Shown here one piece after another: positions 5,148 to 36,937 of a DNA stretch of 50,744 nt. The position numbers and the translations under genes were made by a program. The number at the start of each line of letters is the position of its first letter. Within the stretch, counting starts at the first letter, position 1. Below the pieces are notes generated by a model, which was not told where the DNA came from, searched no databases, and was given only the letters and a program-made list of their open reading frames with translations. The stretch covers positions 1 to 50,744 of the IMG/VR virus record IMGVR_UViG_3300005432_000002; one strand, written 5' to 3'. The DNA comes from a virus.

Positions 5148-6773
5148 TTATTTAATTCCTATTACACACTCAGTTAATTGTGTGCCTTCGTTATATTTAT
5201 CCTTGATTAGACGTCCCAACACATTAAAAGCAGTACACTCGCTTAAATTGGCCACCCTTGCTTCGCCGTTTCCTGCAGAAACTACACGGTCACCTGCTTT
5301 ACCAGTGCCTTTTAATTTAACAAACACTCTCCCTTTTAGTGCTACCATTGGGTGTGTGTCGTTATTTCCGGCCTCTGCATTCATCAAAAATGCTGGTGAA
5401 TCAGATATGACCCCAAATACTGCATCTGAAAGTTCATCGTTGCATTTTGTTATCTCTGCAGAACCTCCTAGAATGACTACTTCTCCAATCGCCAATGGAC
5501 CATCGGATTCGTACCTCTCAGCCAAATCCGCGTATTGTGCCGCTGTGGCTGTCGCATGTACCACGTTCGCTCTAATATCTACCAACGTTGGGGCAGACAT
5601 CTCTGTGCCACCAACATCTGATGATTTGAATGCTGTCCAGGCTCCGCCTGAATTGCCATAAATTGTTGTGCCGTCATCTGCAAACGTTTCGTCCCATACC
5701 CAAAACAGATCTTGTTCTGTGGCTGTTGATGCATCGCCTCTGTTTACTTTGATTCCTGAATAACTAGGCATGCCTGAGTTGGATGACACATTTCTGTTTA
5801 ATTCTATAATGTTGTCTTCAACAGTCAGAGTTGATGTGTTGCTTGTGATGGAATCACCATCCACTGTTAGGCTACCGTGTATTCTTACATCACCACTGTC
5901 ACCTTGCATAGTCAATACTGTTTTTGTTGCACCACCGTCATTTACTGTGAATGCTATGTTTCCGTCCTGTGTAACATTGGCAATAGTGAAGTTATCACCC
6001 GACATGGTCATGGTGATGTCACTACCTGCACCAATCCTTAGACCGTTGTCATTTAATATTTCCAAATGACCCGACGTCGAATCGTTTCCGTCTGATCTTA
6101 AGAAGTTTGCAACCGCAACTCCGCCAAGTGCGTCTGAGTCTGTTGCTGTACCTCTGAACTTCGCACTTGATACTGTGCTTGAAAGTTGAACACCCTGTGC
6201 CACTGATGCGAAACCTGCCGCTATCAAGGCCGCCGCATTGGTTTCACTCGAATCTGGAGTGAACGCAAGGTTGGATACTATACCAACCACTGTGTCTTGG
6301 GTCACAAGTTTTAATATTGATCTAAACACACCTGTGTTGTCTTTCACAGTTTCTGTCACAACCTGTGTCACGCCCGATCCTGCAATCGTAGTTGGTCCAA
6401 TCAGTGTGAATGCTGTACCGTCGTAACAGTACAACTGACTGTTTGCTGTGTCAAACCAAAGATCGCCTTTGACAGCATTTGATGGTGCAGTGGCCGAATT
6501 GGTCGGTGAACCAACCGGTTTGAATTTTGTACCATCGTAAACGTTTATCTGTTTGTTGGTTTGATCGAACCAAAGTTGTCCTTGTATCTTGTTTGAAGGT
6601 GCAGATGTGTTGTTAAAATTCTCTAATAGTTTGATAAGGTTCTCATTCAGTTTCTCACCAAAACCTGCGTAACCTTTTCCAAATAGTGTGAGGTCCGTTG
6701 TGGCCGTATCAATGGTTCCATCTGCTAGAGTCACCAATAGGGTACCGAATGTGTTGTTAATCTTATACGCCAT
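5148..6773 (-). CDS. Tail fibre-like protein, paralogue of the gene at 18821-20038
   Basis: 541 residues. The first ~300 residues align by eye with the 405-residue protein at 18821-20038: shared GKGYAG(F/Y)GE, LLENF, IQGQL(W/Y)(F/Y)D, GDLW(F/I)D, FLRSD and VNDGGAT blocks. The C-terminal ~240 residues are unrelated. They include a region around YADLAERYESDGPL and GEVVILGG that resembles a C-terminal domain common in tail fibres of T4-like and other phages. The layout (anchor and shaft shared, tip different) suggests two fibres using one attachment site. CATAAATA lies 7 bases before the ATG and there is no SD. Receptor unknown. Confidence 0.75.
   Translation of the reverse strand: MAYKINNTFGTLLVTLADGTIDTATTDLTLFGKGYAGFGEKLNENLIKLLENFNNTSAPSNKIQGQLWFDQTNKQINVYDGTKFKPVGSPTNSATAPSNAVKGDLWFDTANSQLYCYDGTAFTLIGPTTIAGSGVTQVVTETVKDNTGVFRSILKLVTQDTVVGIVSNLAFTPDSSETNAAALIAAGFASVAQGVQLSSTVSSAKFRGTATDSDALGGVAVANFLRSDGNDSTSGHLEILNDNGLRIGAGSDITMTMSGDNFTIANVTQDGNIAFTVNDGGATKTVLTMQGDSGDVRIHGSLTVDGDSITSNTSTLTVEDNIIELNRNVSSNSGMPSYSGIKVNRGDASTATEQDLFWVWDETFADDGTTIYGNSGGAWTAFKSSDVGGTEMSAPTLVDIRANVVHATATAAQYADLAERYESDGPLAIGEVVILGGSAEITKCNDELSDAVFGVISDSPAFLMNAEAGNNDTHPMVALKGRVFVKLKGTGKAGDRVVSAGNGEARVANLSECTAFNVLGRLIKDKYNEGTQLTECVIGIK
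5194..5201 (-). promoter_or_regulatory. T4-type late promoter box (GATAAATA)
   Basis: GATAAATA on the minus strand, inside the end of the fibre gene and about 50 bases before the ATG at 5143. It matches the NATAAATA form reported for T4-like cyanophage late promoters. It would give the 328-residue virion gene its own late transcript. Confidence 0.45.
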
Positions 6774-6780
6774 GTACGGA

Positions 6781-6788
6781 TATTTATG
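6781..6788 (-). promoter_or_regulatory. Late promoter box (CATAAATA) abutting the fibre start
   Basis: CATAAATA on the minus strand, followed by 7 bases and the ATG at 6773; no SD between them. It overlaps the stop codon of the upstream oxygenase gene. Transcription would start at or next to the ATG, so this would separate late expression of the fibre from the accessory island. Confidence 0.5.
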
Positions 6789-7665
6789 CTTCGATTAAAG
6801 GCTTTGTGTACCTGCTAAATTTAGTGTAAAAGTGCCCATCTATCGGTTTTCCGTAATTTGGGTCTGCTTTGAGCAGATGAAATGTCAATCCAATCTTCCA
6901 TTTGATCTTGTCAATATTATAATTGCTTGAACCGTGGATAGCACACGAATCTTGTACAATGGCATTGCCTGGACTCCAAGCAAACGTGTTTTCTATGCTT
7001 ATCCCTTCGTATGCCGAAAGTGATACATTTTCACTCACATGTTTTTGGAACCATTCTTGAGGAATCGCTCCATATTTTACATTTTCAACACCATATTCTT
7101 CGTATGGTCTTTCTCGCAACACGTTGCTGTAACTAGGAAAATATTTGTTTTGCCTTCCCTTCTGGAATTGTGTGCCTCGGCTTTTGTAACGCTGTTCACA
7201 GATATAATAGAATAGTTCTACATCATCTGACATGGCTATGGGTATGATTATGTCCTTGTATGGCTTGTAACCTTGAATGTGAGTCACGCAATCTGTGTGC
7301 AACTGATATGGAGATACTATTTTGAAAAACTGATCACCAACATTTATGGGATCGTCACTCACATCGCTGTAATATGTAAAGTCACCGAATTGTTTTTGCA
7401 ATTTGCTGTGTGTGATTTCTCTTACAAGTTCATATCTACTAGGATGATTTATATGTAAGATCTTGTTGTTAATGTTTTCTCCGTTTTCTTCATACTCTTG
7501 ATTGAAAAAATTTAACAAGGCAGATATTTCGCCTTCGTCGATGAAATTTTCAATCATGTAGGATGGTTCATCTTCATTTTCAAAAAATCTTATATCTGGG
7601 TCATGTATTATGTCCTTGTCTGGGGGAAGTACACTAGCCGGGTTGGATTTGTAAAATTTAGGCAT
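6784..7665 (-). CDS. 2OG/Fe(II) oxygenase-like protein (tandem paralogue 1)
   Basis: 293 residues with a 2-oxoglutarate/Fe(II) oxygenase metal triad: H123-T-D125 and distal H244 (AIHGSSNY). Lys257, before the strand IGLTFHLL, stands where most family members have the Arg that binds the 2OG carboxylate; Lys is known in FIH-like enzymes. Blocks GY.PYKD, RERPYEEY, W(S/T)PG.AIV.DS and IHG..NY are shared with the next gene, so the two are tandem duplicates. The ATG at 7665 overlaps the preceding stop by 8 bases (ATGCCTAA), a junction seen again at 9547; the long upstream extension of the frame lies inside that gene. Probable role: hydroxylation of a small molecule, glycan or lipid. Confidence 0.7.
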   Translation of the reverse strand: MPKFYKSNPASVLPPDKDIIHDPDIRFFENEDEPSYMIENFIDEGEISALLNFFNQEYEENGENINNKILHINHPSRYELVREITHSKLQKQFGDFTYYSDVSDDPINVGDQFFKIVSPYQLHTDCVTHIQGYKPYKDIIIPIAMSDDVELFYYICEQRYKSRGTQFQKGRQNKYFPSYSNVLRERPYEEYGVENVKYGAIPQEWFQKHVSENVSLSAYEGISIENTFAWSPGNAIVQDSCAIHGSSNYNIDKIKWKIGLTFHLLKADPNYGKPIDGHFYTKFSRYTKPLIEA

Positions 7666-8569
7666 CTTCCTCCATTCTTGGATCTGCCTTGCATTCGCTG
7701 AACCCTTGCATCTGGGGGAAAACACTGAATACTGTAGAAGGCTTGTATTCAGGGATATTTTTAAACAGTCTGAGTGTGATGCCTAGTTTATACTTGCCAC
7801 CTTTAATTTTGTAGTTTGTTGCACCGTGTATCATAGAACTGTCTGTAACAATGGCTCTGCCAGGTGTCCATGGCAACATTTTATTAAGACTGAAGCCTTG
7901 AAGCATTTCGTAATTATAAATTTCACCAAAGTATTCATCATACCAGTCTTTAGATATCATCTTGTCAGGATCAGATTCATAGTTTTTAAAAAACTTATAT
8001 TCTCCATATGGCTTCTCTCTCATGATATCTGAATAAAGAGCAAACATATTATCAATGTGTTTATATTTGAAATGGCATCCTCTTCCGTACCAACGTTGAT
8101 TAAATGTGTAGTATGGCGAATCTACACCGCCCTCCATTTCTAAAGGAATCAAAACATCTTTGTATGGCACATAGCCAGGTATGTGAATCAATGAATCTGT
8201 GTGAGGAGCAAAAATTCCTTGTTGCCAAAAATAAAAATCAGAACTTTGTTTTTGTTTATCGTTATTGATATCACTGTAACTGAACCATTTGCCAAATTGT
8301 TCATTAAGTTTTGGAATTAATATTTCTCTCAATTCAGGATAGTTCAGAGGATATACCAAAAAGAAATGGCTTTTATTCAACTGAACAACTTCGCTTGTTA
8401 CCCTATCATAATAAAATTTTTTACAATATTCTATTTCAAAGTCGTCTAGAAAATCTATTTGGTATGGCTGTTCTTCTGGAATAAATCCTTCGAACGATTT
8501 GTCATCTGGATTGTGTACCAGGTCTTTACCATAAACTCCTAGTTGTTTTGCTTTATGTACGTGAGTCAT
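7658..8569 (-). CDS. 2OG/Fe(II) oxygenase-like protein (tandem paralogue 2)
   Basis: 303 residues. The metal triad is H123-T-D125 and H248 (MIHGATNY), at nearly the same positions as in the neighbouring paralogue, and the cofactor-binding basic residue again appears to be Lys (K259 or K261). The N-terminus (KDLVHNPDDKSFEGF) matches the paralogue's KDIIHDPDIRFFE. TGGAGATGT before the ATG provides the SD. It overlaps the upstream oxygenase gene by 17 bases and the downstream one by 8. Function inferred only at family level: an oxidative step on an unknown substrate. Confidence 0.7.
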   Translation of the reverse strand: MTHVHKAKQLGVYGKDLVHNPDDKSFEGFIPEEQPYQIDFLDDFEIEYCKKFYYDRVTSEVVQLNKSHFFLVYPLNYPELREILIPKLNEQFGKWFSYSDINNDKQKQSSDFYFWQQGIFAPHTDSLIHIPGYVPYKDVLIPLEMEGGVDSPYYTFNQRWYGRGCHFKYKHIDNMFALYSDIMREKPYGEYKFFKNYESDPDKMISKDWYDEYFGEIYNYEMLQGFSLNKMLPWTPGRAIVTDSSMIHGATNYKIKGGKYKLGITLRLFKNIPEYKPSTVFSVFPQMQGFSECKADPRMEEDA

Positions 8570-9083
8570 ACATCTCCAATAGTTCTTTTATTGATTGTGT
8601 AAAGGACATCTGAAAACTATACCTATCATGATTTGTTTCATTAAATGCATTATGTAATGTGTCCGTGGTTGCTAATAAAGATTTTTTTGAATAAAGATGC
8701 GTGTGTGCTACGTTTTTATTCTCGTCGTAAAATTCTAACCTAGTTTCCTGGGGCATGTCGTCTGGAGCCAACAAGGTAAGCAAAACACAATTTCTGTGCT
8801 TTGTATGGTGAGCGTCTATGTGTGGTGCCATATCTGTATTTGGCTTCAACCTTATGAAATTCATTGTTGCTGGAGCACACATAAGTTTTGTAATAATCTC
8901 TTTGGCTTCTAACATTTCCTTTGATACAGTCAATTGATCGTCATAGGTACTGCATACCTCATAGTTTGTTTTTTGTTTGCTCAGTATAGATTTGTGATAT
9001 TTGAAAGTATTTGCTTTAGCCTGTTGCAAAAGTTTTGCCCTAAGGTTAGCGTCAAACTCAAAGTCTAATTCATGGCAATACAT
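8553..9083 (-). CDS. 2OG/Fe(II) oxygenase (Asp/Asn-hydroxylase or prolyl-4-hydroxylase type)
   Basis: 176 residues forming one double-stranded beta-helix unit. The triad is H88-I-D90 and H144 (TLHNAF), and R154 follows ten residues later for 2OG binding; NCVLLTLLAP between them is the usual core strand. The size is that of minimal phage oxygenases. TTGGAGATATAAA precedes the ATG. Overlaps with both neighbours (19 and 17 bases) place it in the coupled island. The likely substrate class (peptide side chain or small molecule) cannot be decided. Confidence 0.75.
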   Translation of the reverse strand: MYCHELDFEFDANLRAKLLQQAKANTFKYHKSILSKQKTNYEVCSTYDDQLTVSKEMLEAKEIITKLMCAPATMNFIRLKPNTDMAPHIDAHHTKHRNCVLLTLLAPDDMPQETRLEFYDENKNVAHTHLYSKKSLLATTDTLHNAFNETNHDRYSFQMSFTQSIKELLEMYDSRT

Positions 9084-9547
9084 TTTATATCTCCAAAAGG
9101 TACGTCATGAATGCCCATATGAAAAACAATTCTTTCTTTTGTTGGTGCTTTGACACCATGGGCAACTTTTGTATTAATTACAGTCATATTGTTGTACAGC
9201 ACTTCTGTGCCATCGGCAAAATATAGTTCTCCTGTCATTTCTGTCATTGGTATTACAACAGAACATTTGCTCAACACATCTGTGTGTAACGGAAGTTCTC
9301 CCCCGGGCAATACACGAAAGAAATTACAACGCCATTCTTGAGGGCGTATACCAAGGTAATTCCATATTTTTTTAATTTCTCTTAACAAAGGCCTATCAAA
9401 ACTTTTTATTTCTTGTACGAAAAATTTGTTGTTTTCCCAACTCATATATTCTTTATACAAATCGTTACTGTCTTCCCATTGATTGTTCATATAACTTTTG
9501 AGCAACAACTCGTTCACAGGATAATTTGTTTCTATGTAATTAAGCAT
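9065..9547 (-). CDS. 2OG/Fe(II) oxygenase (small, Asp/Asn-hydroxylase-like)
   Basis: 160 residues. H88-T-D90 (LPLHTDVL), distal H130 (VAHGV) and R139 make a complete metal and 2OG site; the strand SVVIPMTEMTGELYF between them fits the family core. The ATG at 9547 is chosen because CAGGAGGATCTTG precedes it and it overlaps the previous stop by 8 bases (ATGCTTAA), like the junction at 7665. A TTG one codon earlier is less likely. Short and single-domain, it may act with the neighbouring oxygenases. Confidence 0.75.
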   Translation of the reverse strand: MLNYIETNYPVNELLLKSYMNNQWEDSNDLYKEYMSWENNKFFVQEIKSFDRPLLREIKKIWNYLGIRPQEWRCNFFRVLPGGELPLHTDVLSKCSVVIPMTEMTGELYFADGTEVLYNNMTVINTKVAHGVKAPTKERIVFHMGIHDVPFGDIKCIAMN

Positions 9548-10364
9548 CAAGATCCTCCTGTCCTAAGAAAGATATTATAATGTGTGCTCTCGTTGTTTTG
9601 CCTTTGTTCCATGCACTATGTTTCAAACCTTGGTTAAGAAACCAACATTCTCCAGGGGCCATTGTTTGTTCGTGTTTTACACCATTTTTATCTATGACAT
9701 GGAAGCCGCACCCTTCATTTGTTGTCAGTGGTATGTGATATCTCACACTGTAATCTGTATTGTAGTCTATGTGATCACCAATATATGCACCTGGATCCAT
9801 CACAGCAATTCTGGCCCTTGTGTGCTCGGCTTTGAAACTGTTCAGCACTTCTTCTATGTATGTGCCCTTTACCCAATCTTTGACTTTGTTATAATGTCTT
9901 TCATCCAATCTTTTTTTTGGAATTTTTTTGTCATAGACTCTGTCTTCCATTTCAGGATTGTATTCAGTGAGTGCTATTTGCTTGTATGGAGATCCATTTA
10001 CTTCAAACTTGCCTTCTTTATCTTTTACTATGTAATTCTCATACGGTTTGACATAATTCCTATAATCCCAGGCCATACGTTTGTTTCCTAGTGCTTTCGT
10101 AATCTGACTGTCGTTTTTGTATAATTCGGATTCGGCCACATCGTTGTTCACTAAAAATTCGTAGGCATCTTCTATGCTTGTAAATTTTAATCCAAATGCT
10201 TTTTGCAATTTTGATGTCTTTCCTCCAACAAGGTCGCCATACCCTTCCTTTACTTTTAGATCATCTTCCTGTACAGGCATTTTCCTCACTATCTCATTAA
10301 TGCGTTCCACATCAAATGTGTAGGGTAATTTCTTGAATGCAGGTAATTGATCTCTCTTTAACAT
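9540..10364 (-). CDS. 2OG/Fe(II) oxygenase, aspartyl/asparaginyl beta-hydroxylase-like
   Basis: 274 residues. A C-terminal oxygenase domain holds H198-I-D200 (GDHIDYNTDYSVRYHIPL), H249 (LKHSAWN) and R259, with GECWFLNQG between them; this is close to the aspartyl/asparaginyl beta-hydroxylase pattern. The N-terminal ~150 residues are charged and unidentified and may position the substrate. The ATG at 10364 overlaps the previous stop by 7 bases (ATGTTAA); ATG 10376 and GTG 10394 upstream are possible. Family members hydroxylate Asp or Asn in proteins, so a virion or host protein substrate is possible. Confidence 0.75.
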   Translation of the reverse strand: MLKRDQLPAFKKLPYTFDVERINEIVRKMPVQEDDLKVKEGYGDLVGGKTSKLQKAFGLKFTSIEDAYEFLVNNDVAESELYKNDSQITKALGNKRMAWDYRNYVKPYENYIVKDKEGKFEVNGSPYKQIALTEYNPEMEDRVYDKKIPKKRLDERHYNKVKDWVKGTYIEEVLNSFKAEHTRARIAVMDPGAYIGDHIDYNTDYSVRYHIPLTTNEGCGFHVIDKNGVKHEQTMAPGECWFLNQGLKHSAWNKGKTTRAHIIISFLGQEDLDA

Positions 10365-10891
10365 AATTCTGTACATGCCTTGTATTGCCAACACTCGTCG
10401 AATTTAGGATCGCACACAGCCACCTTGTCTTCCAGCATTTGCCATTTTGTCCCTGTCTTCTCGCCAATGTTCTCTATAAGTTTTTTCAGATGCCTGGGAG
10501 ATCTGCATCTGCTTATAAACGCTTTTTTGTAACCTAATTCTTTTGCCATCTCTAATTGTTGCCGTACCATCTCGCACACATGATCGTCACCTATTACTTT
10601 GGACGTCCTACGCATGTCGGCAGATTCGTAGTATCGATTCAGTATTCTTACTTCGCCTTTGTCGAAATATTCTTCTCTGTGTATAATGCTTGAGAATCCA
10701 ACTATCTCATCTTTGCGTTCGTAGATACTTATTGCCTCTAGATTCAACCAGTCTATATCTTTGTAGTTGTCGGCCAATCTATCTGATTCGTTAAACTTGT
10801 ATTCTTTCAGTTTCCTTAAAACGTCTGTCCTTTCGTGCGGAAGAAACGTAGTGGACTGAGCAGGTTTATGGCTGTCTAAAGGTTTCAACAT
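10358..10891 (-). CDS. GNAT-like acetyltransferase (tentative)
   Basis: 177 residues. The pattern of strand KDEIVGFSSIIHRE, strand GEVRILNRYYES and helix EMVRQQLEMAKELGYKKAFISRC resembles a GNAT fold (central strands, acetyl-CoA-binding helix, then a strand). The canonical Q/RxxGxG/A loop is not clear, so catalysis is unproven. The start at MLKPLDSH is chosen for the AAGGAG 10 bases upstream; a longer frame starts in the previous gene. It overlaps the previous gene by 26 bases. Alternative: a structural fold relative without activity. Confidence 0.45.
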   Translation of the reverse strand: MLKPLDSHKPAQSTTFLPHERTDVLRKLKEYKFNESDRLADNYKDIDWLNLEAISIYERKDEIVGFSSIIHREEYFDKGEVRILNRYYESADMRRTSKVIGDDHVCEMVRQQLEMAKELGYKKAFISRCRSPRHLKKLIENIGEKTGTKWQMLEDKVAVCDPKFDECWQYKACTELC

Positions 10892-11456
10892 GATTCCAAA
10901 ACTCCTTTTTCTTTTTGCCATGCACCAATAGATGCACTCTCTCTTCATCAGAATTGTTCTCGACATAATGTTCGTAGTGTATGTTCAACACCAATGGCAT
11001 TCCGGGCACATAGTCTACTTGTTTGTTATTCAACACAAACTTGTTGCCTTTTGGATAACTCAAACAGATGTTCAAAGGTTCCAACCAATTGCGTTCAGGC
11101 ACATCTATGTGTTTTGTTATATAACCTTTAGGTTTAATCACAAGAAATCTTACATCGTCTATTCTTGCATATGGCAAACTCTTAACCCATTCTATTGTAC
11201 GAGGACACCTGTCTCCGATGTCTGTGATTTCGGGCCTCTTTTTTCTTCTATCGTATTCCCAGTGACTGTTCGTTTTGTCTGAATCAAAGCCATAGAGTGT
11301 GACCGCACACCAATCTTTGTGTCCATCTTCTGGCCTGTGTACCACCAACCTATCTTTGATCAACTCGTATTCTGTCAGAATCTGTTTCACAGGAACGTCA
11401 AAGTTCATGTGTACGTACTCTACACTGCTATCTCTAGTAAACTCTTGAGTATTCAT
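10866..11456 (-). CDS. 2OG/Fe(II) oxygenase-like protein
   Basis: 196 residues with H116-I-D118 (ITKHIDVPERNW), probable distal H163 (NIHYEHYVEN) and R173. The spacing is right for a minimal double-stranded beta-helix oxygenase. The strand EPLNICLSYPKG lies between the halves. AAGG is 6 bases before the chosen ATG; the longer frame starting at 11480 has no ATG support from an SD. It overlaps the desaturase gene by 23 bases. Substrate unknown. Confidence 0.7.
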   Translation of the reverse strand: MNTQEFTRDSSVEYVHMNFDVPVKQILTEYELIKDRLVVHRPEDGHKDWCAVTLYGFDSDKTNSHWEYDRRKKRPEITDIGDRCPRTIEWVKSLPYARIDDVRFLVIKPKGYITKHIDVPERNWLEPLNICLSYPKGNKFVLNNKQVDYVPGMPLVLNIHYEHYVENNSDEERVHLLVHGKKKKEFWNHVETFRQP

Positions 11457-12000
11457 GATGATCCTTGTGGTTGCCTTCAAATGGTGCTACCAAATTTATT
11501 AGAAATCTGTTTGCAGGACCTTTTGCATCGTGTCCGTAGAAATTCAATATGCCAAATCCCACATAGGAGAGTATAAACAACATTGCATTTACGATCACAG
11601 CGTTCCAGCCAAAAAATATTGGCGTCACCATCCAATGCGTGAAAATTAAGTGCTTTCCGTATTTGTGGAAGAACATCACTCTTGGATTTTTTATCAAGTC
11701 TATCATGTATTTCCGCGGTATGTTCTTGACCTTCCATAAACTGAAAAGTATCACATACCAAGGATGGTTTTTTGGACTGTGTGGGTCCTTGTCTGTGTCT
11801 GCATAAGCGTGGTGTATTCTATGAACACCTGCCCAGGTCAATGCACTCCTACCACCGCATAACAATCCAAAATACAGAAGTACGATTTCTGCCAATGGAC
11901 TGGCTTTGTAATCACCGTGTGAGAAGTATCTGTGGTATCCGTAGGTTATTCCTAGTGCCGCCACTACCCAATAAGTCATATATCCGTACAATAGTATCAT
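11434..12000 (-). CDS. Fatty-acid (acyl) desaturase, short form
   Basis: 188 residues, a membrane di-iron desaturase of the delta-9 type. All histidine boxes are present: H23RYFSH28, H60RIHH64 and H178KDHH182, plus NFYGH before the last box. Hydrophobic segments near residues 1-20, 38-50, 118-150 and 158-175 would cross the membrane. It ends six residues after the third box and starts just before the first, so it is much shorter than usual bacterial relatives (about 250-380). The ATG has no SD; TATAAATA lies 6 bases upstream. Desaturases occur in other marine T4-like phages. Inferred role: altering host membrane lipids or an acyl group on a surface glycan. Confidence 0.85.
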   Translation of the reverse strand: MILLYGYMTYWVVAALGITYGYHRYFSHGDYKASPLAEIVLLYFGLLCGGRSALTWAGVHRIHHAYADTDKDPHSPKNHPWYVILFSLWKVKNIPRKYMIDLIKNPRVMFFHKYGKHLIFTHWMVTPIFFGWNAVIVNAMLFILSYVGFGILNFYGHDAKGPANRFLINLVAPFEGNHKDHHEYSRVY

Positions 12001-12698
12001 TTGAAATATTTATAGTCCTCCCAGTCATGCGGTTTATTTGCATGATTTGTAAAATGCACAAATTTAATATCTGGATGGAATTCGCCTCCAAGATATATGT
12101 AATCGTTTCCGGTTAGTTTTCTGTATTTCATTGTTGTTGCAGTTTGCCATTTGGCCATGTCGCGTCCGCCTATAACGACCTCGTCACTGCACCAACGTGT
12201 GACCCAACTTTTAGGAGTAAGTTTCAGTTCCAGTCTTTCTTTCACAGAATCTTCTACAAAATACTGTTCTCCGTTGATCGGTCCTTTGGTCACTCCGTTA
12301 TCTATGTAGTGCCTTTGCCATTTAAGATGATCTTTCATAAACTTGTCGTATATGTATTTGCAGTCTTTGGGATAATACTTGAAGAATCCGCCATTCAAGT
12401 TGTAGCCTTCCCTTAATGTGTCCCTCCACCATCCTGGTATTGACACGAATTCGCCTTTCTTTACAGGAAATTCAAAAAGTTCTTTGTAGTCATTTATAAG
12501 CAACACATCGATATCCATAACCACTACCGGCTCATCAATGTCCATGTTCATCACAGACATCTTGTTCCATTGCATCAATATATCTTTTTGTATTGGTTCA
12601 TGTATCCAGTGAAAATCGTATTCTGGTAGTTTGTCCTGTAGATATTGCTCATACTCTGGACCATACCTATCTCCTATCCTGACTGCAAATATTTTCAT
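11997..12698 (-). CDS. GT-A-like glycosyltransferase-related protein with DxD
   Basis: 233 residues. KIFAVRIGDRYGPEYEQYL, then PVVVMDIDVLLIND with D62-I-D64, is the N-terminal half of a GT-A fold. NLNGGFFKYYP and DWEDYKYF resemble acceptor-side motifs in glycosyltransferase-like phage proteins, and the layout is similar to the protein at 16807-17397. It overlaps the upstream oxygenase by 4 bases (ATGA) and the desaturase by 4 bases. Sugar donor and target are unknown. Confidence 0.6.
   Translation of the reverse strand: MKIFAVRIGDRYGPEYEQYLQDKLPEYDFHWIHEPIQKDILMQWNKMSVMNMDIDEPVVVMDIDVLLINDYKELFEFPVKKGEFVSIPGWWRDTLREGYNLNGGFFKYYPKDCKYIYDKFMKDHLKWQRHYIDNGVTKGPINGEQYFVEDSVKERLELKLTPKSWVTRWCSDEVVIGGRDMAKWQTATTMKYRKLTGNDYIYLGGEFHPDIKFVHFTNHANKPHDWEDYKYFK
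12007..12014 (-). promoter_or_regulatory. TATAAATA box 6 bases before the desaturase ATG
   Basis: A perfect TATAAATA on the minus strand, within the last codons of the upstream glycosyltransferase-like gene (Tyr-Lys-Tyr). Six bases separate it from the ATG at 12000 and no SD is present. It may be a late promoter giving a leaderless desaturase transcript, or a chance product of coding sequence. Confidence 0.35.
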
Positions 12699-13150
12699 AC
12701 CTTGTATCTAATCTCCTTCGCCACAGTATCGAAATCCTTGTCTTCCACAGAAAATCTTAAGATAATTCTTTCTTCGTTTGATTTCTTCACGCTGTGTACT
12801 CGTTGCACGTCGATAAGTGCCTGTGTGTATTGATGATCTTGTCCGTCAATTGTTATCGGTGATGCGTTATCTGACAAAACAAAACACACTGCACATTTGG
12901 CTGTGTTTGTGTCAACGTGTGGCTCTACATAGAAATCCTCACCAATAAAGTACCATCTGGTCTTGCCTTTTATGTTCAAATCTTTCATTATTTTCTTTAT
13001 TCTAGCATTTTCATAATATGATATCAACCATTTACCGGCCTCCTGTGTCTTTGGACCTCCGTGCAGTTCCGCGGTCTCTCTGGCCTTTTCTGCATCGATC
13101 AAGAGAGCATTCCGATTGATAGGGTAATCCAACTTAACTATACTGGGCAT
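12695..13150 (-). CDS. 2OG/Fe(II) oxygenase, minimal single-domain
   Basis: 151 residues with H78-V-D80 (VEPHVDTNTAKC), H119 (RVHSV) and R128 (EERIILRF). The core strand CAVCFVLS fits the family. AAAGGAGTATT stands before the ATG. It overlaps the upstream radical SAM gene by 17 bases and the next gene by 4. Complete active site, so probably catalytic. A partnership with the radical SAM enzyme is inferred only from gene order. Confidence 0.75.
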   Translation of the reverse strand: MPSIVKLDYPINRNALLIDAEKARETAELHGGPKTQEAGKWLISYYENARIKKIMKDLNIKGKTRWYFIGEDFYVEPHVDTNTAKCAVCFVLSDNASPITIDGQDHQYTQALIDVQRVHSVKKSNEERIILRFSVEDKDFDTVAKEIRYKV

Positions 13151-14345
13151 AATACTCCTTTATCTCTAGCAGTTCAGGTACAAGCGACTCTATTTTGAAT
13201 CCCCTTTTCTGGTTCAAGAAGTCAACCCATTGGAAAACACGATCTTTATTTTTTAAAAAATAAGTTTTATCTTCTAATGTTTCATGAGAGATCCAGGACC
13301 ACAAGGACTCCTTTCTGTCTACTTTTGGGTTATTCGCACACCATATAGATTCTGCATGTTTCTTGTTGAAACGGTCTAACATGTGTTGTGGGATCATTGC
13401 CGGACTAACATACAGGGGTGTAGTTGCTGTCAATATGTTGATACGGCCAACACTTTTCATTTGTGTGAAATATTTTATCGCGTCTTCTATATTAAAAAAA
13501 TTATAAATCGAAAGAGTGATAATAATATCCAATTTCCTGTTAGTTGTGCTATGATATTTGTTAATTTTTGCCACGACATCATCAAACTCCGTGCTTCGTA
13601 TCCAATTGTACTGCTTTCCTATACCGTCTATGCTTACCCCCAGATGCAATTTTTTGATATCTTTTATCAGATCAAGGATTTGGTCACTCATCATGGACAA
13701 ATTTGTAATTAAATTTATTTGACATTCTAACTTTTCTTTTTTGATTTTTTCAAGCAACTTCAAGTTTCTTTTGTCCGCAAAAGGTTCTCCACCTTTCAAC
13801 ATAAGTTGTTCAACAGTTGGTACTATTTGTAAAATTTTATCATAGTCTTCGTCGGTCATGCTGTAATTGTTTTTTGCAAACCTAGTACCTTCTTCTCGGA
13901 ATCCTAGTCCTTGTTCGACTGCTTCTTTGTCGATGGCCATCCATTTACTGCTGAACTTTGATCCACAAGTCACACACGAGGCATTACAGGCGTTGCTTGG
14001 CGTGAACTCTAGGTACTTGACATCATACTTGTCGTTTCTGAAGTTGTCATCGCTCCATGGTAGCCGTTCCCCCATGAAATCTACTAGGGCCGGCTTTCCT
14101 TTTTCTCGATTTCTTTCACAATTATAACAAGGTGAGGGCCATTTTCCTTTTTTGAATTCATCTCTGATCAATCCCTGAGATTCACCATTAATAAAATCTG
14201 TTAGACTTTTTTCTTTAGAGATGTGTCCTAGGCTTACGTGTGGTGCTCCACAGCATGTCACCATGTTTCCGTCGGGATTGATTGTTACCCCGGAAAACGG
14301 AAACTTACAGATTGTTGGCTTCCTTTTGTTGTATTCTATTTCCAA
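13134..14345 (-). CDS. Radical SAM protein with N-terminal SPASM-like domain
   Basis: 403 residues. The radical SAM core has C120-X3-C124-X2-C127 and GGEP at 185-188. Unusually, the auxiliary-cluster cysteines precede the core: C13, C31-C32, C73 and C76. SPASM or twitch regions are normally C-terminal. The start is a TTG: the frame is closed by TAA just upstream and AAGGAG lies 8 bases before the TTG. It overlaps the upstream paralogue's stop by 10 bases. SPASM proteins often act on peptides or aminoglycoside-like molecules, so peptide or sugar modification is possible but unproven. Confidence 0.85.
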   Translation of the reverse strand: MEIEYNKRKPTICKFPFSGVTINPDGNMVTCCGAPHVSLGHISKEKSLTDFINGESQGLIRDEFKKGKWPSPCYNCERNREKGKPALVDFMGERLPWSDDNFRNDKYDVKYLEFTPSNACNASCVTCGSKFSSKWMAIDKEAVEQGLGFREEGTRFAKNNYSMTDEDYDKILQIVPTVEQLMLKGGEPFADKRNLKLLEKIKKEKLECQINLITNLSMMSDQILDLIKDIKKLHLGVSIDGIGKQYNWIRSTEFDDVVAKINKYHSTTNRKLDIIITLSIYNFFNIEDAIKYFTQMKSVGRINILTATTPLYVSPAMIPQHMLDRFNKKHAESIWCANNPKVDRKESLWSWISHETLEDKTYFLKNKDRVFQWVDFLNQKRGFKIESLVPELLEIKEYYAQYS

Positions 14346-15493
14346 TTCACCGTCTCCTTATGCCATAATTTTTTCCAGTTAATTTTGCGATTTCTACTTA
14401 ATATTTCTAAGTAATCATTGATGCGTGTTTTAGTCTCCTTTTTAGCATGTAACTTTAGTTCAGCAAAAAAATTCTTGTCCGAGTCCTTAAAATTTTTATA
14501 CATTTGTATGATTTTATTTTTTGCACTCTGGTTGAGGTTCCTTACCGACAGTACATTCCAGTCAGGATTGTCTTTTTCTGAGGTCTCCATGACGTACGAA
14601 AATGTGGACATTTCAAGATTAAAATTTTTTTTGTAATAATCTTTTATTTTTTCTAATTCAAATACATTTAACAGTTGTACTGTCAATGTTAACTTCATAA
14701 TATATCTGTGATATTGCATTAGATTGTTTTCAAACTGGTCCACGTCTATAGGGTGCCTAATGAATCCTAGTTTATCACCATAATGATCACACGAGACCAG
14801 TAATTGCACATTCTTATATCTCTCCACTAGATCTTCTAAACAATATTTGTTCCATTTTAAATTAGTCAAATTTGTTTCTATTTCGATAGATATTTCTTCT
14901 GCATGTTGTCGTGGCATGTCTTCTAAAAAAAACTTCCAAAATTTTGGAATAGCAAAAGGTTCGCCGCCAGTGACAGATATTGTTCCTATGTGTCGTGCAT
15001 TTTTTATTAAATCTTTTTTAAAAAGTTCAAAGTTGCTGTATGAGACTCCCGGAAATGTTCCCCAGGTGTCTGTTGTGTATCCAACTTGTTTTAATTCTTT
15101 TTGCCTTGTTGTGGAATTGTACGGTATACACATAATACATGATAGATTGCAATGGTTACCAAAGTTCCTTATACGTAAGTTAATTTTTTCTACTTTGCTT
15201 GGTTGTCTTTCTTCTATAAGTTTTGTTCTCACAGAATGTCCAACTTTTTGTTCCTGTTGATAGCAGATCTCACACGAATCTATCCTCTCACCTGCCAACA
15301 TTTTTTCTCTTATTTTATTCATTCCCGCTGATAAGAAAAACTCTATAGGACCTACGTTTTTCCAGTTTGCCTTATCGCCAAAAAATTTTTTGGATTTGTA
15401 ATGATCTGCCCAGCAACATAGATCGTATATGCCAGTGTTGTTGCTGTACACTGTGTCAAAAGGCAATGGACAGTAAGAGTCTTTTACTTCCAT
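14336..15493 (-). CDS. Radical SAM protein with N-terminal SPASM-like domain (paralogue)
   Basis: 385 residues. The core has C115-X3-C119-X2-C122 (HCNLSCIMC) and TGGEP near 175-179. N-terminal cysteines are C8, C26-C27, C74 and C77, with the same C-x17-CC spacing as the neighbour at 13134. The start at MEVKDSYC is chosen because GAGGAA precedes it and it overlaps the nitroreductase stop by 10 bases; the longer frame lies wholly in that gene. Order nitroreductase, this enzyme, second radical SAM, oxygenase suggests a redox pathway. Substrate unknown. Confidence 0.85.
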   Translation of the reverse strand: MEVKDSYCPLPFDTVYSNNTGIYDLCCWADHYKSKKFFGDKANWKNVGPIEFFLSAGMNKIREKMLAGERIDSCEICYQQEQKVGHSVRTKLIEERQPSKVEKINLRIRNFGNHCNLSCIMCIPYNSTTRQKELKQVGYTTDTWGTFPGVSYSNFELFKKDLIKNARHIGTISVTGGEPFAIPKFWKFFLEDMPRQHAEEISIEIETNLTNLKWNKYCLEDLVERYKNVQLLVSCDHYGDKLGFIRHPIDVDQFENNLMQYHRYIMKLTLTVQLLNVFELEKIKDYYKKNFNLEMSTFSYVMETSEKDNPDWNVLSVRNLNQSAKNKIIQMYKNFKDSDKNFFAELKLHAKKETKTRINDYLEILSRNRKINWKKLWHKETVNWK

Positions 15494-16203
15494 GTCACAA
15501 TTTCCTCTATATCCGGTTTCAACGGATTTTTGTAATAAGGCATCTCCCCATCTTTGTACCCTATCCCCAAGAGAAACGCAACATTTTTCCATCCTTTTCT
15601 TAACGGTGCAAGTATATTTGTGAACTGTGTTTCAGAATAATAGTAGCATTTACAGAAACTAGCATGTAGTCCTTGTTCTGCCGCCAATAAAGTAGTGCCG
15701 TGTCCATGCATAGACGCCGCAATGATCCAGTCGTCATTGTCCTTGTAATCTATCAAAAGCCTTTTGTAATTTTTTTCCATTTGCTTTTTTGTTGGAAAGC
15801 CTGGAACCTGATAGTAAACCAATAGATATGGTGCAGTTACCTGTTCATTGAATGCGAAACCCTGTTGCTTTGCGGACCTTTGCCTGTTCTCGTAAGATGG
15901 ATCTTCACGCATTGTTTCCCTTTGACTCTTCCATTTGTTGTATATGTCTTTTTGCTTTTCAAGAGGATAATTTACAAATTCTCTTTTTTGATATCCTGTC
16001 ACTGTCTGTAAAGCAACAGTTTCTTTTTCATCTTTGTGTTCAGGACCATACACATCGATGTTGTAGGCCCACATGTTGTTTTTGTGCGGCACTAGATGAT
16101 GTGCATCTTCTAAAATTTTATCTATTTTTTCACGTCCAGGATCATCTGCTTTGAAGTGATGTATGTTCTCCCTGAACTTCATAAGTTTTTTTAATTCTGT
16201 CAT
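15484..16203 (-). CDS. Nitroreductase-like flavoprotein
   Basis: 239 residues. The N-terminus (LMKFRENIHHFKADDPGREKIDKILEDAHHLVPHKNN, read here as several short motifs) follows the nitroreductase pattern of an Arg-rich FMN-phosphate site, then a helix, then a small-residue stretch. The middle has a long charged insertion, and DWIIAASMHGHGTTLLAAEQGL matches the helix that packs on the flavin. C-terminal GWKNVAFLLGIGYK fits the family's end strand. Usual length is about 200-230. It is coupled by overlap to the downstream radical SAM gene and to the methyltransferase upstream (ATGA). The oxidised or reduced substrate is unknown. Confidence 0.65.
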   Translation of the reverse strand: MTELKKLMKFRENIHHFKADDPGREKIDKILEDAHHLVPHKNNMWAYNIDVYGPEHKDEKETVALQTVTGYQKREFVNYPLEKQKDIYNKWKSQRETMREDPSYENRQRSAKQQGFAFNEQVTAPYLLVYYQVPGFPTKKQMEKNYKRLLIDYKDNDDWIIAASMHGHGTTLLAAEQGLHASFCKCYYYSETQFTNILAPLRKGWKNVAFLLGIGYKDGEMPYYKNPLKPDIEEIVTWK

Positions 16204-16844
16204 TTTTTTGTTCCTATGATCATAAATCTTTTATACTTGCCCATGTCCTTTTCGAACGATCTAATGTTATTTAATAGTGGATCATACTGTTGCACGAACA
16301 CCTCGAGGTTTTCAACACAATTGACATGTTGTGGAACTTCGACATAATCGTTACTTTGCAAAACAAACAATGTATTCTGAGGTGCATTTGAAATTGTATC
16401 TGTGATAATGCTCTGTTCCATGTGTTCACAACTTGTATTGATCACTATACTGAAACTTTTTTCTGATATATTTAGGTCCTTGATGTCTTTCTCAACAAAC
16501 TCAACACTTGGAAACAACATCCTGCCCACCTGTCCGGCGTATGGATCAAAATCATATGAATAGATATTCCTAATGGGTTTTAAAGAAAAATGATCTGACA
16601 CTATCTTGGCCATCAAACCATACCAACCTCCTAGGATTGCAATGTCTATGCTGTCTTTTGTTTTCATTTTGAAGTGATAAGGGTATTGATTCAAGCAATC
16701 GATCAACCAAGTCTTACAATCAAACTGATTTTGATTGAAACAGTCCAAGACGTCTATAAGTCTGCCTGGAAATTTATTGGCTATCTTCTTGATATTTTTA
16801 TAGATATCAATTATTTGCTGGTTGTACTTGTTCATACTTGCCAT
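16200..16844 (-). CDS. Class I SAM-dependent methyltransferase-like protein
   Basis: 214 residues. Motif I is IAILGGWYG (around G72), followed by IYSYDFDPYA, where the acidic residue after the second strand would bind the ribose of SAM, and by VEKDIKDL and FSIVINTSCEHM as motifs II and III. The start at MASMNKY is uncertain: no SD is visible, and an ATG at 16835 or the frame's upstream start could be used. It overlaps the glycosyltransferase-like gene by 38 bases. Small-molecule or glycan O-methylation is a reasonable guess. Confidence 0.6.
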   Translation of the reverse strand: MASMNKYNQQIIDIYKNIKKIANKFPGRLIDVLDCFNQNQFDCKTWLIDCLNQYPYHFKMKTKDSIDIAILGGWYGLMAKIVSDHFSLKPIRNIYSYDFDPYAGQVGRMLFPSVEFVEKDIKDLNISEKSFSIVINTSCEHMEQSIITDTISNAPQNTLFVLQSNDYVEVPQHVNCVENLEVFVQQYDPLLNNIRSFEKDMGKYKRFMIIGTKK

Positions 16845-17397
16845 TATACAACACAATAGCACTATTATCAATGTTTTCTAACCAACTGGTAATATTATTT
16901 GTCTTGATAAGTTGGTAATCTACCTCTTCGTTGTATATGAATCTATCTATTCCTGAATAAAGCCTCAAATACATGTCTCTGTGCTTCATAAACTTTTCAA
17001 ATACATGTGAATGATTGCTCCAACGCATGATACTGGAATTCACCATGGTGTTTTGTGTGATCCTGAATACGTAATCGTCCTTTACACCTTTCCAAGGAGT
17101 GCTATCTATGAGAGAAAAGTTTTGAAAGTCTTCACACAAGAAATCAATGTTGGAATTTATTTTGATGTCTAGATCAAAGAAAAGACTATCGCCTTTGTTT
17201 TCTAGCAGAGCGAGTTTGTGCCAGACACCACGCAGGTATGAATATTTTACAGGTAAATCATAATCATATTCGGGTGTGTCGGTGTAACAAACAAATTTGT
17301 GAGGCACAGTTAGATTTTTTGCTATCGACTCTTTCAGTTCCTCGACAAAATGCCTAGGGTATTTGTCTCCCCATCTAACGCAATATACTGTTAACAT
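16807..17397 (-). CDS. GT-A-like glycosyltransferase-related protein with DxD
   Basis: 196 residues. VYCVRWGDKYPRHFVEEL starts the fold, FVCYTDTPE is the second strand, LRGVWHKLALLEN is a helix typical of this phage group, and DSLFFDLDIKI carries D75-L-D77. The set is a convincing short GT-A core. The ATG abuts the previous gene's stop with 1-base overlap; no clear SD. It may work with the methyltransferase that overlaps its 3' end, giving a methylated sugar; this is inference. Confidence 0.6.
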   Translation of the reverse strand: MLTVYCVRWGDKYPRHFVEELKESIAKNLTVPHKFVCYTDTPEYDYDLPVKYSYLRGVWHKLALLENKGDSLFFDLDIKINSNIDFLCEDFQNFSLIDSTPWKGVKDDYVFRITQNTMVNSSIMRWSNHSHVFEKFMKHRDMYLRLYSGIDRFIYNEEVDYQLIKTNNITSWLENIDNSAIVLYNGKYEQVQPANN

Positions 17398-17873
17398 TAT
17401 TTGTTTTGTTTTTGTACAATGTCCGTATAGGCCAACAACACCTCAAGTGGCGTTTTTGCCTGACGAATTTTCTTCTTGTCTTCGTTTCCGTTGTAGTCCT
17501 TAACTATATCTTTGTCAAAAACTTTCAGTTTCAGGTTGAACAGTTGCTCAGCATGTTCTTTTTCACTGTAATTCAATACAAAGTCGATAACACTATCGAA
17601 ACTACGCATTGGACTGTCTTCCATTTTGATTTTCATTCTCGCATCAACTACCCTGTTCAATTGATTCAATGCTTGTTTGTTTCTGGCAACAGTTGAATCT
17701 GCTATTTTGGCCAACGGATACTCCTCAACAAGATCTCTGAAATCATTGTGTGTCATGTCGACTGGCAGGTAATGATTGATTGCACGTTTGCCATCTTGAT
17801 ATATGACCTCTACTGTCGTGTTGTCAGGATCCGTGTAGTATGCTTCTATTATCTTTCCTGAAAATATTGCCAT
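17397..17873 (-). CDS. Hypothetical phage protein, 158 aa
   Basis: No family recognised. The N-terminal third is beta-like (IIEAYYTDPDNTTVEVIYQ), the middle is helical and charged, and the C-terminus is Lys-rich. No membrane or export signal. AGGAG lies 8 bases before the ATG. It is the last gene upstream of the accessory island and follows the 311-residue virion protein by 11 bases, so it may be an assembly helper or a virion component. That is positional inference only. Confidence 0.6.
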   Translation of the reverse strand: MAIFSGKIIEAYYTDPDNTTVEVIYQDGKRAINHYLPVDMTHNDFRDLVEEYPLAKIADSTVARNKQALNQLNRVVDARMKIKMEDSPMRSFDSVIDFVLNYSEKEHAEQLFNLKLKVFDKDIVKDYNGNEDKKKIRQAKTPLEVLLAYTDIVQKQNK

Positions 17874-17884
17874 TTTTATTTCTC

Positions 17885-18820
17885 CTATGATTTCTGTATT
17901 TTAAACGAATATGTGTTAACTGTCGACGGTGTTCCGTCTGGAAATTCCTGTGCTCGGTAATCACTGCCACTGACAAATCTGGTTTGATAATTTCCACTTC
18001 CACCAGTCAATTGTGTGTTAACAATGGCTGATCCTCTCAAATTACCAATACTGCCATCAATGTTATATGAAATTTGGTTTCCGGCTGAGTTGTTGACCAC
18101 ATGATGCCTAATGTATTCTTGCATTAATGCACCTATATTTGCTGTGGAATACTGTTGTAGGTCATTATTTGAATCTATTTGCAATGGAGGATTGAATGTT
18201 CCAAGCACTCCGTCTATACGATGTAGATAATAGTTGGTAATCGTCTGTGGTTGATCCAATGCTTCACCTATGGCATCTGCCGAATACAATGATGTGTCTG
18301 CCCTTGTGTCTGTAAACACTGGTGTAGACGAAACTAATGTGGATCCTGTCACGGAATCTGATGTTGCAATATGATATGTTCCTGCCTGGTCCGATGTTGT
18401 TGTGGCCGCCGCCAAAAGATTGATTGCTGGAAGTATAAAAGTGTCAACAAAATCTGTTTCCGTCATTGCCCTGATTTGAGTTCCTGTCCAGTACACTGGA
18501 AATGTTTTGCCTGTGTCTGATGTTGTTACGTTTGCGGTCTGTGCCGCTTGTGTAATCCTCTGGTATGATACTGTGACAACGCTTGGCTCTGCAGTTGTTG
18601 CCTCACTGGGGAAACTGCCTGATGCCGTTGATGCCGCACCTGCCTGCAATCTGGTGTCATCTATCGAAGTTAGATTTCCACCTGACCCTGCCACTGTCAA
18701 TACTCTCGATGGATTCAATGAATAATAGTAAACTGCTAAGGAATAAAGATTGTTTAAATCAGTTGTTTTTGCCTGTTGGAGTTGGGATCCATTGTATAAT
18801 AGGGGTACTCTGACAGTCAT
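17885..18820 (-). CDS. Virion structural protein (baseplate/fibre region)
   Basis: 311 residues, rich in Ser, Thr, Ala and Gln, beta-prone, no Cys cluster. The N-terminus MTVRVPLLYNGSQLQQ and a Gly/Ser-rich C-terminal part ending NTYSFKIQKS resemble virion proteins of marine T4-like phages. AGGAGCGTAG precedes the ATG, which abuts the fibre gene stop with no gap. Its position after gp6, the giant protein and the fibre suggests a distal baseplate or fibre part. A gp8 or gp9 equivalent is possible, but I cannot show it. Confidence 0.65.
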   Translation of the reverse strand: MTVRVPLLYNGSQLQQAKTTDLNNLYSLAVYYYSLNPSRVLTVAGSGGNLTSIDDTRLQAGAASTASGSFPSEATTAEPSVVTVSYQRITQAAQTANVTTSDTGKTFPVYWTGTQIRAMTETDFVDTFILPAINLLAAATTTSDQAGTYHIATSDSVTGSTLVSSTPVFTDTRADTSLYSADAIGEALDQPQTITNYYLHRIDGVLGTFNPPLQIDSNNDLQQYSTANIGALMQEYIRHHVVNNSAGNQISYNIDGSIGNLRGSAIVNTQLTGGSGNYQTRFVSGSDYRAQEFPDGTPSTVNTYSFKIQKS

Positions 18821-20038
18821 CTACGCTCCTGCGCCGTTGATGGTCTTTAATACGCTCCCTGAACTACTTAAAATTTGTAGTGATGTTGGTGTAGCCATCA
18901 TGGCCGCTGTTACAGTGCCAGAATCACCTGTTGTTACAACCGATCCTGTTACGTTAGGAATAGTGATTGTTCTGTCGGCTGTTGGATTTGCAACTGTTAA
19001 AGTTGTTTCGAATCCATCATCGGTAGAACCTTCAAAAATAATTGTGCCATTCTGAGTGATCTCTATGCCTGATGTTGTAACTGCACCAGTTATTGGGCCA
19101 GTGAACGCTGTGGCATTTACAGTGCCCGACACATCAAGTTTAGTAGAAGGTGATGTTGTGCCTATACCTATTCTTGATTCAGCACCATCTATTGTCATTA
19201 CCGTAGTTGTTGCGCCACCATCGTTGACTTTGAATGTGATATCAGTATTTTGTATTGTGTTTGCCACATTTATTCCTGAGCCATCCACTGTTATTGACAA
19301 GTCGTTGTCAGCACCAACGGTCATACCAGAATCTGTTACAATACCTATTGTGCCTGTTGTGGTGTCATTGGCATCTGATCTCAGGAAAGACGCCGCAGAA
19401 ATGCCACCAAGTTTGTCGGCATCTGTTGATGTTCCGTGTAATTTAATCCCAGACGGTGATGTTGTTAATGTGATTCCTTTGAACACTGTTGGAAAACCTG
19501 CGATTGTGGTCTGTGGTGTGAATTCCGTATCTGAAACAATGGCAATTAAAGTGCCATCACTGTACCATTTCGTAATTGGTTGGCTGGCAGTAGTCGAATC
19601 TGTTACATTTTCAAAAATAAAACCATTGAGTGATCCTGTTGAAGCAGGGGGACCTACTAAAACACTCTGAGAGCCATCATAGTAATACAGTTGTCCTGTA
19701 TCCGAGTCAATCCAAAGGTCACCTTGTTGAATCGCTGTTGGCTGTGTGGACTGATAGGGTACGTTACCTCCCGCTGGAACAAAAGCAGTTCCTGTGTATA
19801 CCTTTAACCTGTTCCCTGCCGAGTCATAGTACAGTTGTCCTTGTATAGGTTTTGTTGGTGCCGTTGGACCCGAAAAATTTTCTAATAGGTGTAAGAAATT
19901 TTCTGCTATCAGTTCTCCATAACCTGCGTAGCCTTTTCCGATAAAACTTAAATCTGTTTGTGTGTTTACAACACCATCTTGCACTATGTACTGGTTTGGT
20001 GATGCAGAACTGTTAGTCTTGTTTACTGTATATGCCAT
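18821..20038 (-). CDS. Tail fibre-like protein, paralogue of the gene at 5148-6773
   Basis: 405 residues. Residues ~1-300 parallel the 541-residue fibre (GKGYAGYGE, LLENF, IQGQLYYD, GDLWIDSDTGQLYYYDG, VNDGGATTTVMTI). The C-terminus is short and different (SGTVTAAMMATP, then a Ser/Gly-rich end), lacking the YADLAERY domain. AGGATACTAATAG precedes the ATG. It lies 3 bases after the 241-residue virion gene. Likely a baseplate-attached short fibre or connector; paralogy suggests modular tip exchange. Confidence 0.7.
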   Translation of the reverse strand: MAYTVNKTNSSASPNQYIVQDGVVNTQTDLSFIGKGYAGYGELIAENFLHLLENFSGPTAPTKPIQGQLYYDSAGNRLKVYTGTAFVPAGGNVPYQSTQPTAIQQGDLWIDSDTGQLYYYDGSQSVLVGPPASTGSLNGFIFENVTDSTTASQPITKWYSDGTLIAIVSDTEFTPQTTIAGFPTVFKGITLTTSPSGIKLHGTSTDADKLGGISAASFLRSDANDTTTGTIGIVTDSGMTVGADNDLSITVDGSGINVANTIQNTDITFKVNDGGATTTVMTIDGAESRIGIGTTSPSTKLDVSGTVNATAFTGPITGAVTTSGIEITQNGTIIFEGSTDDGFETTLTVANPTADRTITIPNVTGSVVTTGDSGTVTAAMMATPTSLQILSSSGSVLKTINGAGA

Positions 20039-36929: not shown

Positions 36930-36937
36930 TATTTATA
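36930..36937 (-). promoter_or_regulatory. T4-type late promoter (TATAAATA) of gp6
   Basis: Perfect TATAAATA in the 42-base gap between gp25 and gp6, 14 bases before the gp6 ATG. The predicted start leaves a leader of about 8 bases without an SD. Late expression of a baseplate gene fits gp55 control. Confidence 0.65.

Follow-up and report, generated by a model that had tools for sequence, protein, structure and literature searches.

In pelagimyophages, the host recognition cluster (HRC) is a hypervariable island in the structural region, flanked by conserved virion genes, that holds tail fibres, glycosyltransferases (GTs), and radical S-adenosylmethionine (SAM) cassettes, and the accessible sections of the paper that describes it report cassettes that differ between two genomes (Zaragoza-Solas et al., 2020; PMC7029224). 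A precedent for glycans on phage structural proteins comes from mycobacteriophage virion glycosylation, but this concerns other phages with capsid and tail-tube substrates, and the excerpted account reports no set of 2-oxoglutarate (2OG) enzymes, desaturase, or radical SAM enzymes (Freeman et al., 2023, as cited in PMC12619734). Here we describe an island of enzyme genes between two tail fibre genes, g93 and g75, in IMG/VR record IMGVR_UViG_3300005432_000002, a 50,744-base stretch of DNA (the window) from a marine phage that infects bacteria. Over its full length the window is 100% identical to part of a 138,715-base contig, IMGVR_UViG_3300026258_000271, whose positions equal the window positions plus 47,567 and which was used to read past the left edge of the window. 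The gene names g54 to g106 follow the open reading frame (ORF) numbering of this contig and were made for this analysis.

Like the HRC, the locus is a variable island with fibres in the structural region, here found in two states between g93 and g75, behind a baseplate wedge gene (g101). It carries radical SAM cassettes (family NF033640), and its GTs are putative, recognizable by a DxD motif and by synteny. It differs in that the backbone is nearest, by its baseplate gene, to Rak2/Atu_ph07-type jumbo phages and not to the Kyanoviridae, and in that the island comprises two exchangeable modules swapped against a defined alternative and followed by a conserved array of five radical SAM genes. A two-module structure is not described for the HRC in the accessible sections of its paper (PMC7029224). 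NF033640 (N_Twi_rSAM) is a family of unknown function, and a five-gene phage array lies outside its definition. In the open literature, which leaves aside subscription papers and preprints, no description was found of the two-module structure, the alternative state, the transfer between lineages, or the five-radical-SAM array.

The two states were revealed by comparing 16 related contigs that span the fibre region and 80 loci around g94. State A is present in the window and in five of the 16 contigs, with three more cases among the 80 loci, two of these from other contigs. Its core consists of g92, g91, g90, g89, g88, g84, g83, g82, g81, g80, g79, and g76. State B, found in 10 of the 16 contigs and in most other close loci, contains a second fibre, a Gly-rich adhesin whose C-terminus is Hint-like, a PF05118 hydroxylase, a short-chain dehydrogenase/reductase (SDR), and a small ORF. 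The fibre g93 itself differs by state: most state-B copies have a C-terminal chaperone-type domain and two have a different long C-terminus, whereas state-A copies are about 405 residues long, lack this domain, and are followed by g92. State A forms one clade both in the baseplate tree (support 100/100, a single change) and in the g94 tree (92/91), so the block changed hands a single time and has since been inherited, with variation confined to its internal inserts. Back-and-forth horizontal movement of the island inside the lineage was considered and was not seen.

The variable inserts of this region are x3 to x9, x11, x12, g77, g78, and g85 to g87. Among them, g86 is absent from all five other state-A records, one of which has a 41% relative of g87 at a different position. 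The window radical SAM genes g86 and g87, which had contributed to the natural-product flavour noted in a preliminary description of this DNA, are accessory to the island, as is g85. Two further arrangements were seen along the way. In locus L115 (17897-19318) and its relatives, the state-B glycine-rich adhesin (x15) has a C-terminal Hint-like domain and is possibly self-processing. A third state (L161:13422-17795 and L163:14172-18045) combines g92-g91 with genes of the g84/g90 type that run on the other strand, a different radical SAM gene, a QueC-like PP-loop ATPase, and a methyltransferase or unidentified gene; the state-B second fibre follows.

Searches with g92 and with the desaturase g83 as separate queries divided the state-A core in two. 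Module 1 comprises g92, g91, two GT-A-like genes (g90 and g84), the methyltransferase g89, and the nitroreductase g88; module 2 comprises the desaturase g83, two PF05118 hydroxylases (g82 and g80), further 2OG enzymes, and g81. Among loci with at least 8 kb downstream of g92, a GT-A-like gene of the g90/g84 type follows in 55 of 55, and two such genes in 46, although these loci are not independent, since many share ancestry. The same 55 loci also hold a g89-type methyltransferase (51), radical SAM genes (43), a nitroreductase (21), and a carbamoyltransferase (18). The first GT-like gene shares the strand of g92 in 34 loci and faces the other way in 21; being found in both orientations, the association survives rearrangement. 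Of 58 g92 loci that extend more than 4 kb upstream, 47 lack the window's backbone genes g94/g95, and 41 of these 47 keep the GT-like gene.

For module 2, g83, g82, g81, g80, and g79 occur together in 19 of 20 uncut loci with a desaturase identity of at least 67%, and the remaining locus has four of the five. Ten of the 19 have neither g92 nor the backbone genes of the window. In one of these ten (L389), module 2 stands beside genes like those of Pelagibacter phage Mosig, and its g79 and g80 are still 82% identical to the state-A copies, which argues for transfer of the module between phage lineages. Elsewhere (L394 and L398), the desaturase/PF05118 module adjoins different radical SAM arrays in other phages. 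Since module 2 is found without module 1, a single 14-gene pathway is ruled out, and the block-wise synteny equally rules out that each gene moves alone. The preliminary description had proposed one pathway block; movement in blocks was borne out by the synteny comparison, and the single unit gave way to two independently mobile modules plus inserts. Its boundaries also had to be widened, because the natural unit takes in g92 and g91.

Homologues of both modules are present in a cultured phage. The sole match to g92 among 50,697 phage records was Mosig_00097 of Pelagibacter phage Mosig EXVC030M (MT647606), with 54.6% identity over the full length. Its neighbourhood contains homologues of g93, g91, g90, g84, g89, and g88, a carbamoyltransferase, and three radical-SAM-type genes annotated as MoaA-like. 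Next come a PF05118 enzyme, a desaturase (34%), a TauD-type enzyme, an N-acetyltransferase, and another PF05118 enzyme, adjoining tail fibres. The Mosig island (Mosig_00070-00098) thus resembles that of the window in having homologues of both modules around a g92 homologue. It differs in that the module 1 enzymes lie on the opposite strand, an aminotransferase, a flavin mononucleotide (FMN) reductase, and a peroxiredoxin are added, identity is about 21-55%, and the backbone is that of a kyanovirus. The Mosig genome announcement does not discuss this island.

Between positions 6784 and 17397 of the minus strand lie 15 ORFs (Table 1), one more than first counted. With longest-ORF starts, each of the 14 junctions between them is an overlap, of 4 to 109 bases. 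The first account was right in recognizing coupled redox and sugar tailoring genes that lie between two fibre genes. Purifying selection is strong in every island gene tested, with proportions of 0.65-0.88 for synonymous (pS) against 0.08-0.32 for nonsynonymous (pN) differences; dN/dS is 0.02-0.15 wherever dS could be computed, with synonymous sites near saturation. The genes are real, and their constraint is not due to chance.

Table 1. Features of the fibre region and its surroundings, in window positions and in the order of the minus strand.
Feature	Position	Strand	Evidence or remark
T4-type late promoter -10 box TATAAATA	36930..36937	-	Upstream of g101; heads gap-free late array with island
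g101, baseplate wedge protein, lineage marker	33433..36915	-	PHROG baseplate wedge, 6e-292
g93, tail fibre	18821..20038	-	Without the C-terminal chaperone-type (IMC/G2-like) domain of most state-B relatives
g92, putative virion adhesin/tip protein, module 1 anchor	17885..18820	-	Mosig_00097 homologue
g91, small conserved protein paired with g92, perhaps an assembly factor	17397..17873	-	Synteny
g90, GT-A-like, module 1	16807..17397	-	Invariant DxD; no Pfam match
g89, SAM methyltransferase-like, module 1	16200..16871	-	Sub-threshold Pfam, 0.005; Mosig methyltransferase homologue
g88, nitroreductase-fold flavoprotein, module 1	15484..16203	-	Sub-threshold Pfam; PDB 5j6c profile match
g87, N_Twi radical SAM enzyme, accessory insert	14336..15592	-	NF033640, 226 bits
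g86, N_Twi radical SAM enzyme, accessory insert	13134..14345	-	NF033640, 224 bits
g85, small 2OG-like ORF, insert	12695..13150	-	HxD motif only; no Pfam match
g84, GT-A-like, module 1	11997..12698	-	Invariant DxD; homologue Mosig_00092
g83, acyl-CoA-type fatty acid desaturase, module 2	11434..12000	-	PF00487, three His boxes
g82, PF05118 Asp/Arg hydroxylase-like 2OG enzyme, module 2	10866..11480	-	6.6e-13; 87-89% identity across state A
g81, conserved protein, module 2	10358..10966	-	Acetyltransferase label unsupported
g80, PF05118 Asp/Arg hydroxylase-like 2OG enzyme, module 2	9540..10394	-	2.3e-15
g79, small 2OG-like protein, module 2	9065..9550	-	HxD conserved 5/5; motif only
g78, PF05118-type 2OG enzyme, variable position	8553..9083	-	4.5e-5
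g77, 2OG dioxygenase relative of g76	7658..8569	-	Family alignment; other genes in its place in relatives
g76, Fe/2OG dioxygenase, module 2 end	6784..7725	-	Structure model and Foldseek
g75, tail fibre, Peptidase_G2-like region	5148..6773	-	
g74, putative virion protein heading radical SAM locus	4157..5143	-	Conserved synteny
g73-g69: small protein g73, GT-like g72, g71, g70, g69	1055..4081	-	Conserved lead-in to array
g68, first of five tandem N_Twi radical SAM genes	1..1089	-	Cut by window end

Most enzyme labels held up, at different strengths. The two radical SAM enzymes exceed the 170-bit cut-off of NCBIfam NF033640 and have intact CxxxCxxC and GGEP motifs; the invariant cysteines of the family (CxxxCxxC and the N-terminal twitch) are present in eight of eight. 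The desaturase matches PF00487 at 1.5e-7 over its whole length, and its profile matches acyl-CoA desaturase structures at 1e-11, although at 188 aa it is shorter than SCD1. Up to seven 2OG oxygenase candidates were found in place of six: five (g76, g77, g78, g80, and g82) are supported beyond the motif, with g78, g80, and g82 all above the Pfam cut-off for PF05118, and g79 and g85 have the HxD motif only. In its AlphaFold model (predicted local distance difference test, pLDDT, 66.5) g76 adopts the double-stranded beta-helix fold of Fe/2OG oxygenases, and the 50 best Foldseek matches listed are all Fe/2OG enzymes. The nitroreductase and methyltransferase identities are plausible but weak, since both fall below their Pfam cut-offs (19.8 against 23.5 bits for g88 and 17.9 against 27 bits for g89); the former is backed by a profile match to PDB 5j6c at 1e-5. 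The GT-A label of g84 and g90 draws on an invariant DxD and synteny; g84 has no Pfam or PDB match, and its AlphaFold model has a pLDDT of 35. A GNAT-like (acetyltransferase) assignment of g81 was not supported, with a match in one of six members at E 0.09. Profile searches of the PDB with g76/g77, g82, g84, and g92 gave no useful match.

Upstream of the island, 40 of the 68 relatives have the sequence TATAAATA exactly at -22 of g101, where chance predicts 0.004 occurrences per 60 bp. Its count across the entire window is at chance level, and its significance lies only in this fixed position before g101 in relatives. Another copy, before 12000, falls within codons of g84; most other state-A records lack it at this gene boundary, and it was discounted. 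From g101 through g74 all gaps are 12 bp or less. By this layout the island appears to be part of a gap-free late operon of baseplate and fibre genes, and the promoter together with the array suggests that it is expressed late, along with the fibres.

The phage encodes a T4-type late sigma factor, SbcCD, and a contractile-tail baseplate. The nearest named relatives of g101 are those of Sinorhizobium phage Phosso, Agrobacterium phage Atu_ph07, Salicola phage SCTP-2, and Rak2-type jumbo phages (35-44%), and Mosig and the cyanophages are not among the 25 best of the 89 records matched. A pelagimyophage (Kyanoviridae) backbone was therefore not supported. In IMG/VR, 526 relatives of the baseplate gene were found, of which 80 were kept. 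Elsewhere the phage carries nucleotide-sugar genes, namely a GDP-mannose-dehydratase-like gene, a PIG-L deacetylase, an epimerase, a DegT aminotransferase, and a group 1 glycosyltransferase (GT1). Separately, locus L014 (3667-5704) has two adjoining paralogous genes of about 340 aa that look amidinotransferase-like by eye, a label backed by no family match.

The most conserved set of radical SAM genes lies to the left of the island, mostly outside the window. It occupies positions 40909-48656 of contig IMGVR_UViG_3300026258_000271 (L015), and four of its five radical SAM genes are outside the window. The order is g75, g74, g73, g72, g71, (g70), and g69, then the radical SAM genes g68, g66, g65, g63, and g62, followed by g61, labelled SGNH-like by eye with no Pfam match, and a NodU/CmcH-type carbamoyltransferase (g57). 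Four members tested exceed the NF033640 cut-off. A g65 query retrieved 80 loci, and the number of radical SAM genes is exactly five in 63 of them, six or seven in 9, and three or four in 8, several of these last being cut by contig ends. Relatives at about 50% identity retain the array, with the order of g62 and g63 reversed, on contigs of up to 354 kb. The array is more conserved than the island and shares its layout of virion protein, small protein, GT-like genes, and tailoring enzymes.

Within the array, an alternative oxidase gene (PF01786, 9e-79; L015:5459-6136) is found, among related loci, only in the window phage and one near-identical contig. At L014:18747-19958, g57 has 403 aa against about 487-490 aa in relatives, its N-terminus being about 85 residues shorter, perhaps through a broken start or an assembly error. 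A scan of bacterial genomes found five contigs in unrelated metagenome-assembled genomes (MAGs) with several adjoining radical SAM copies (L215-L219, labelled Betaproteobacteria, Pelagibacter, Verrucomicrobia, Rickettsiales, and Flavobacterium). Because they carry the phage-type radical SAM set, these look like phage contigs binned into bacterial genomes. The family exceeded its cut-off in one of 289 alphaproteobacterial genomes, itself one of the five MAGs, and bacterial context was given up as a clue to the function of the array. Cultured Vibrio phage K566 (255 kb; L214) has three nearby radical SAM genes without annotated function.

A surface-modification pathway, as first suggested, is still the best class of explanation. 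The comparisons establish the anatomy, linkage, exchange, position, and constraint of the genes, and the recurrence of the modules in unrelated phages; product and destination are a matter of inference. We tentatively favour, at somewhat less than an even chance, that the exchangeable tailoring modules of the late fibre operon are matched to the neighbouring adhesin and decorate the phage's own adhesins. This is preferred because the enzymes lie within the late virion operon, are exchanged along with a particular adhesin set, and keep their link to g92 where the locus is rearranged; in state B, too, enzymes accompany the adhesin, namely a PF05118 hydroxylase and an SDR. Module 1, with two GT-A-like enzymes, a methyltransferase, and a nitroreductase, joined in numerous carriers by radical SAM, carbamoyltransferase, and aminotransferase genes, would build and transfer an unusual modified sugar. 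Module 2, with a desaturase and two to four 2OG hydroxylases, would make or oxidize an acyl- or amide-type group. The product would be attached late in infection to new adhesins and fibres, chiefly g92 and its partners, where it could alter receptor binding or shield the tip. The five-radical-SAM array, with g74, GT-like genes, the SGNH hydrolase, and the carbamoyltransferase, may repeat this arrangement in a better-conserved version. Some points count against decoration of adhesins: the GT-A identity comes from DxD and synteny, and a few g92 genes have no neighbouring GT genes (L156). The close rival is remodelling of the host surface, by which the lipopolysaccharide (LPS), lipid, or glycan of the infected cell would be altered to block the phage's own adhesin or competing phages, serving superinfection exclusion or progeny release; it is possible, with a lower probability. 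This rival predicts the linkage of enzyme and adhesin equally well, since enzymes that hide the host receptor recognized by that adhesin would have to match it. Likewise, an acyl-CoA-type desaturase of the membrane-lipid kind and the PF05118 enzymes suit lipid chemistry, the desaturase fitting a host lipid better than a virion protein. The PF05118 family also includes lipid hydroxylases. The two PF05118 proteins scanned against NCBIfam (g78 and g80), however, gave no LpxO/OlsC-type lipid hydroxylase match up to 0.05, and g82 and g84 have no close relatives in the 289 alphaproteobacterial genomes, in searches without a positive control. The nucleotide-sugar genes count for both readings, being consistent with the synthesis of a special sugar in either case. 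A place in the late virion operon is late for exclusion but compatible with action on the host surface, and a host-surface role has been proposed for the GTs of the equivalent pelagimyophage island (PMC7029224).

Two other explanations lie further from the evidence. Radical SAM enzymes, 2OG enzymes, and nitroreductases co-occur in clusters for ribosomally synthesized and post-translationally modified peptides (RiPPs), and an N-terminal SPASM/twitch-like radical SAM enzyme is indeed present here beside the other two enzyme types. A natural product of this kind, whether peptide or small molecule, is nevertheless improbable: the island radical SAM genes are accessory, RiPP maturase models matched far below their cut-offs, and the constant linkage to virion proteins would go unexplained. 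The ORFs showed no precursor peptide, transporter, or recognition element on inspection, with no dedicated precursor search made. It is just as doubtful that unrelated auxiliary genes merely gather in a hypervariable spot beside the fibres. Variable inserts do occur, but both modules are strongly constrained and, in phages of distant backgrounds, keep their content and largely their order, which largely contradicts such a collection.

Carried further, decoration of adhesins would mean that abundant marine phages use dedicated multi-enzyme oxidative assembly lines, with five tandem radical SAM enzymes and swappable 2OG, desaturase, and GT modules, to build a new type of post-translational decoration on receptor-binding proteins that is exchanged with the adhesin to switch host range; in this full form the proposal is rather unlikely. 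Homologues of both modules in the cultured SAR11 phage Mosig bring the question within reach of experiment. Explanations of phage host range usually invoke fibre sequence alone. If adhesins or receptors are tailored by co-inherited enzymes, host range and the control of co-infection in ocean phages would depend on a chemistry that comparison of fibres misses.

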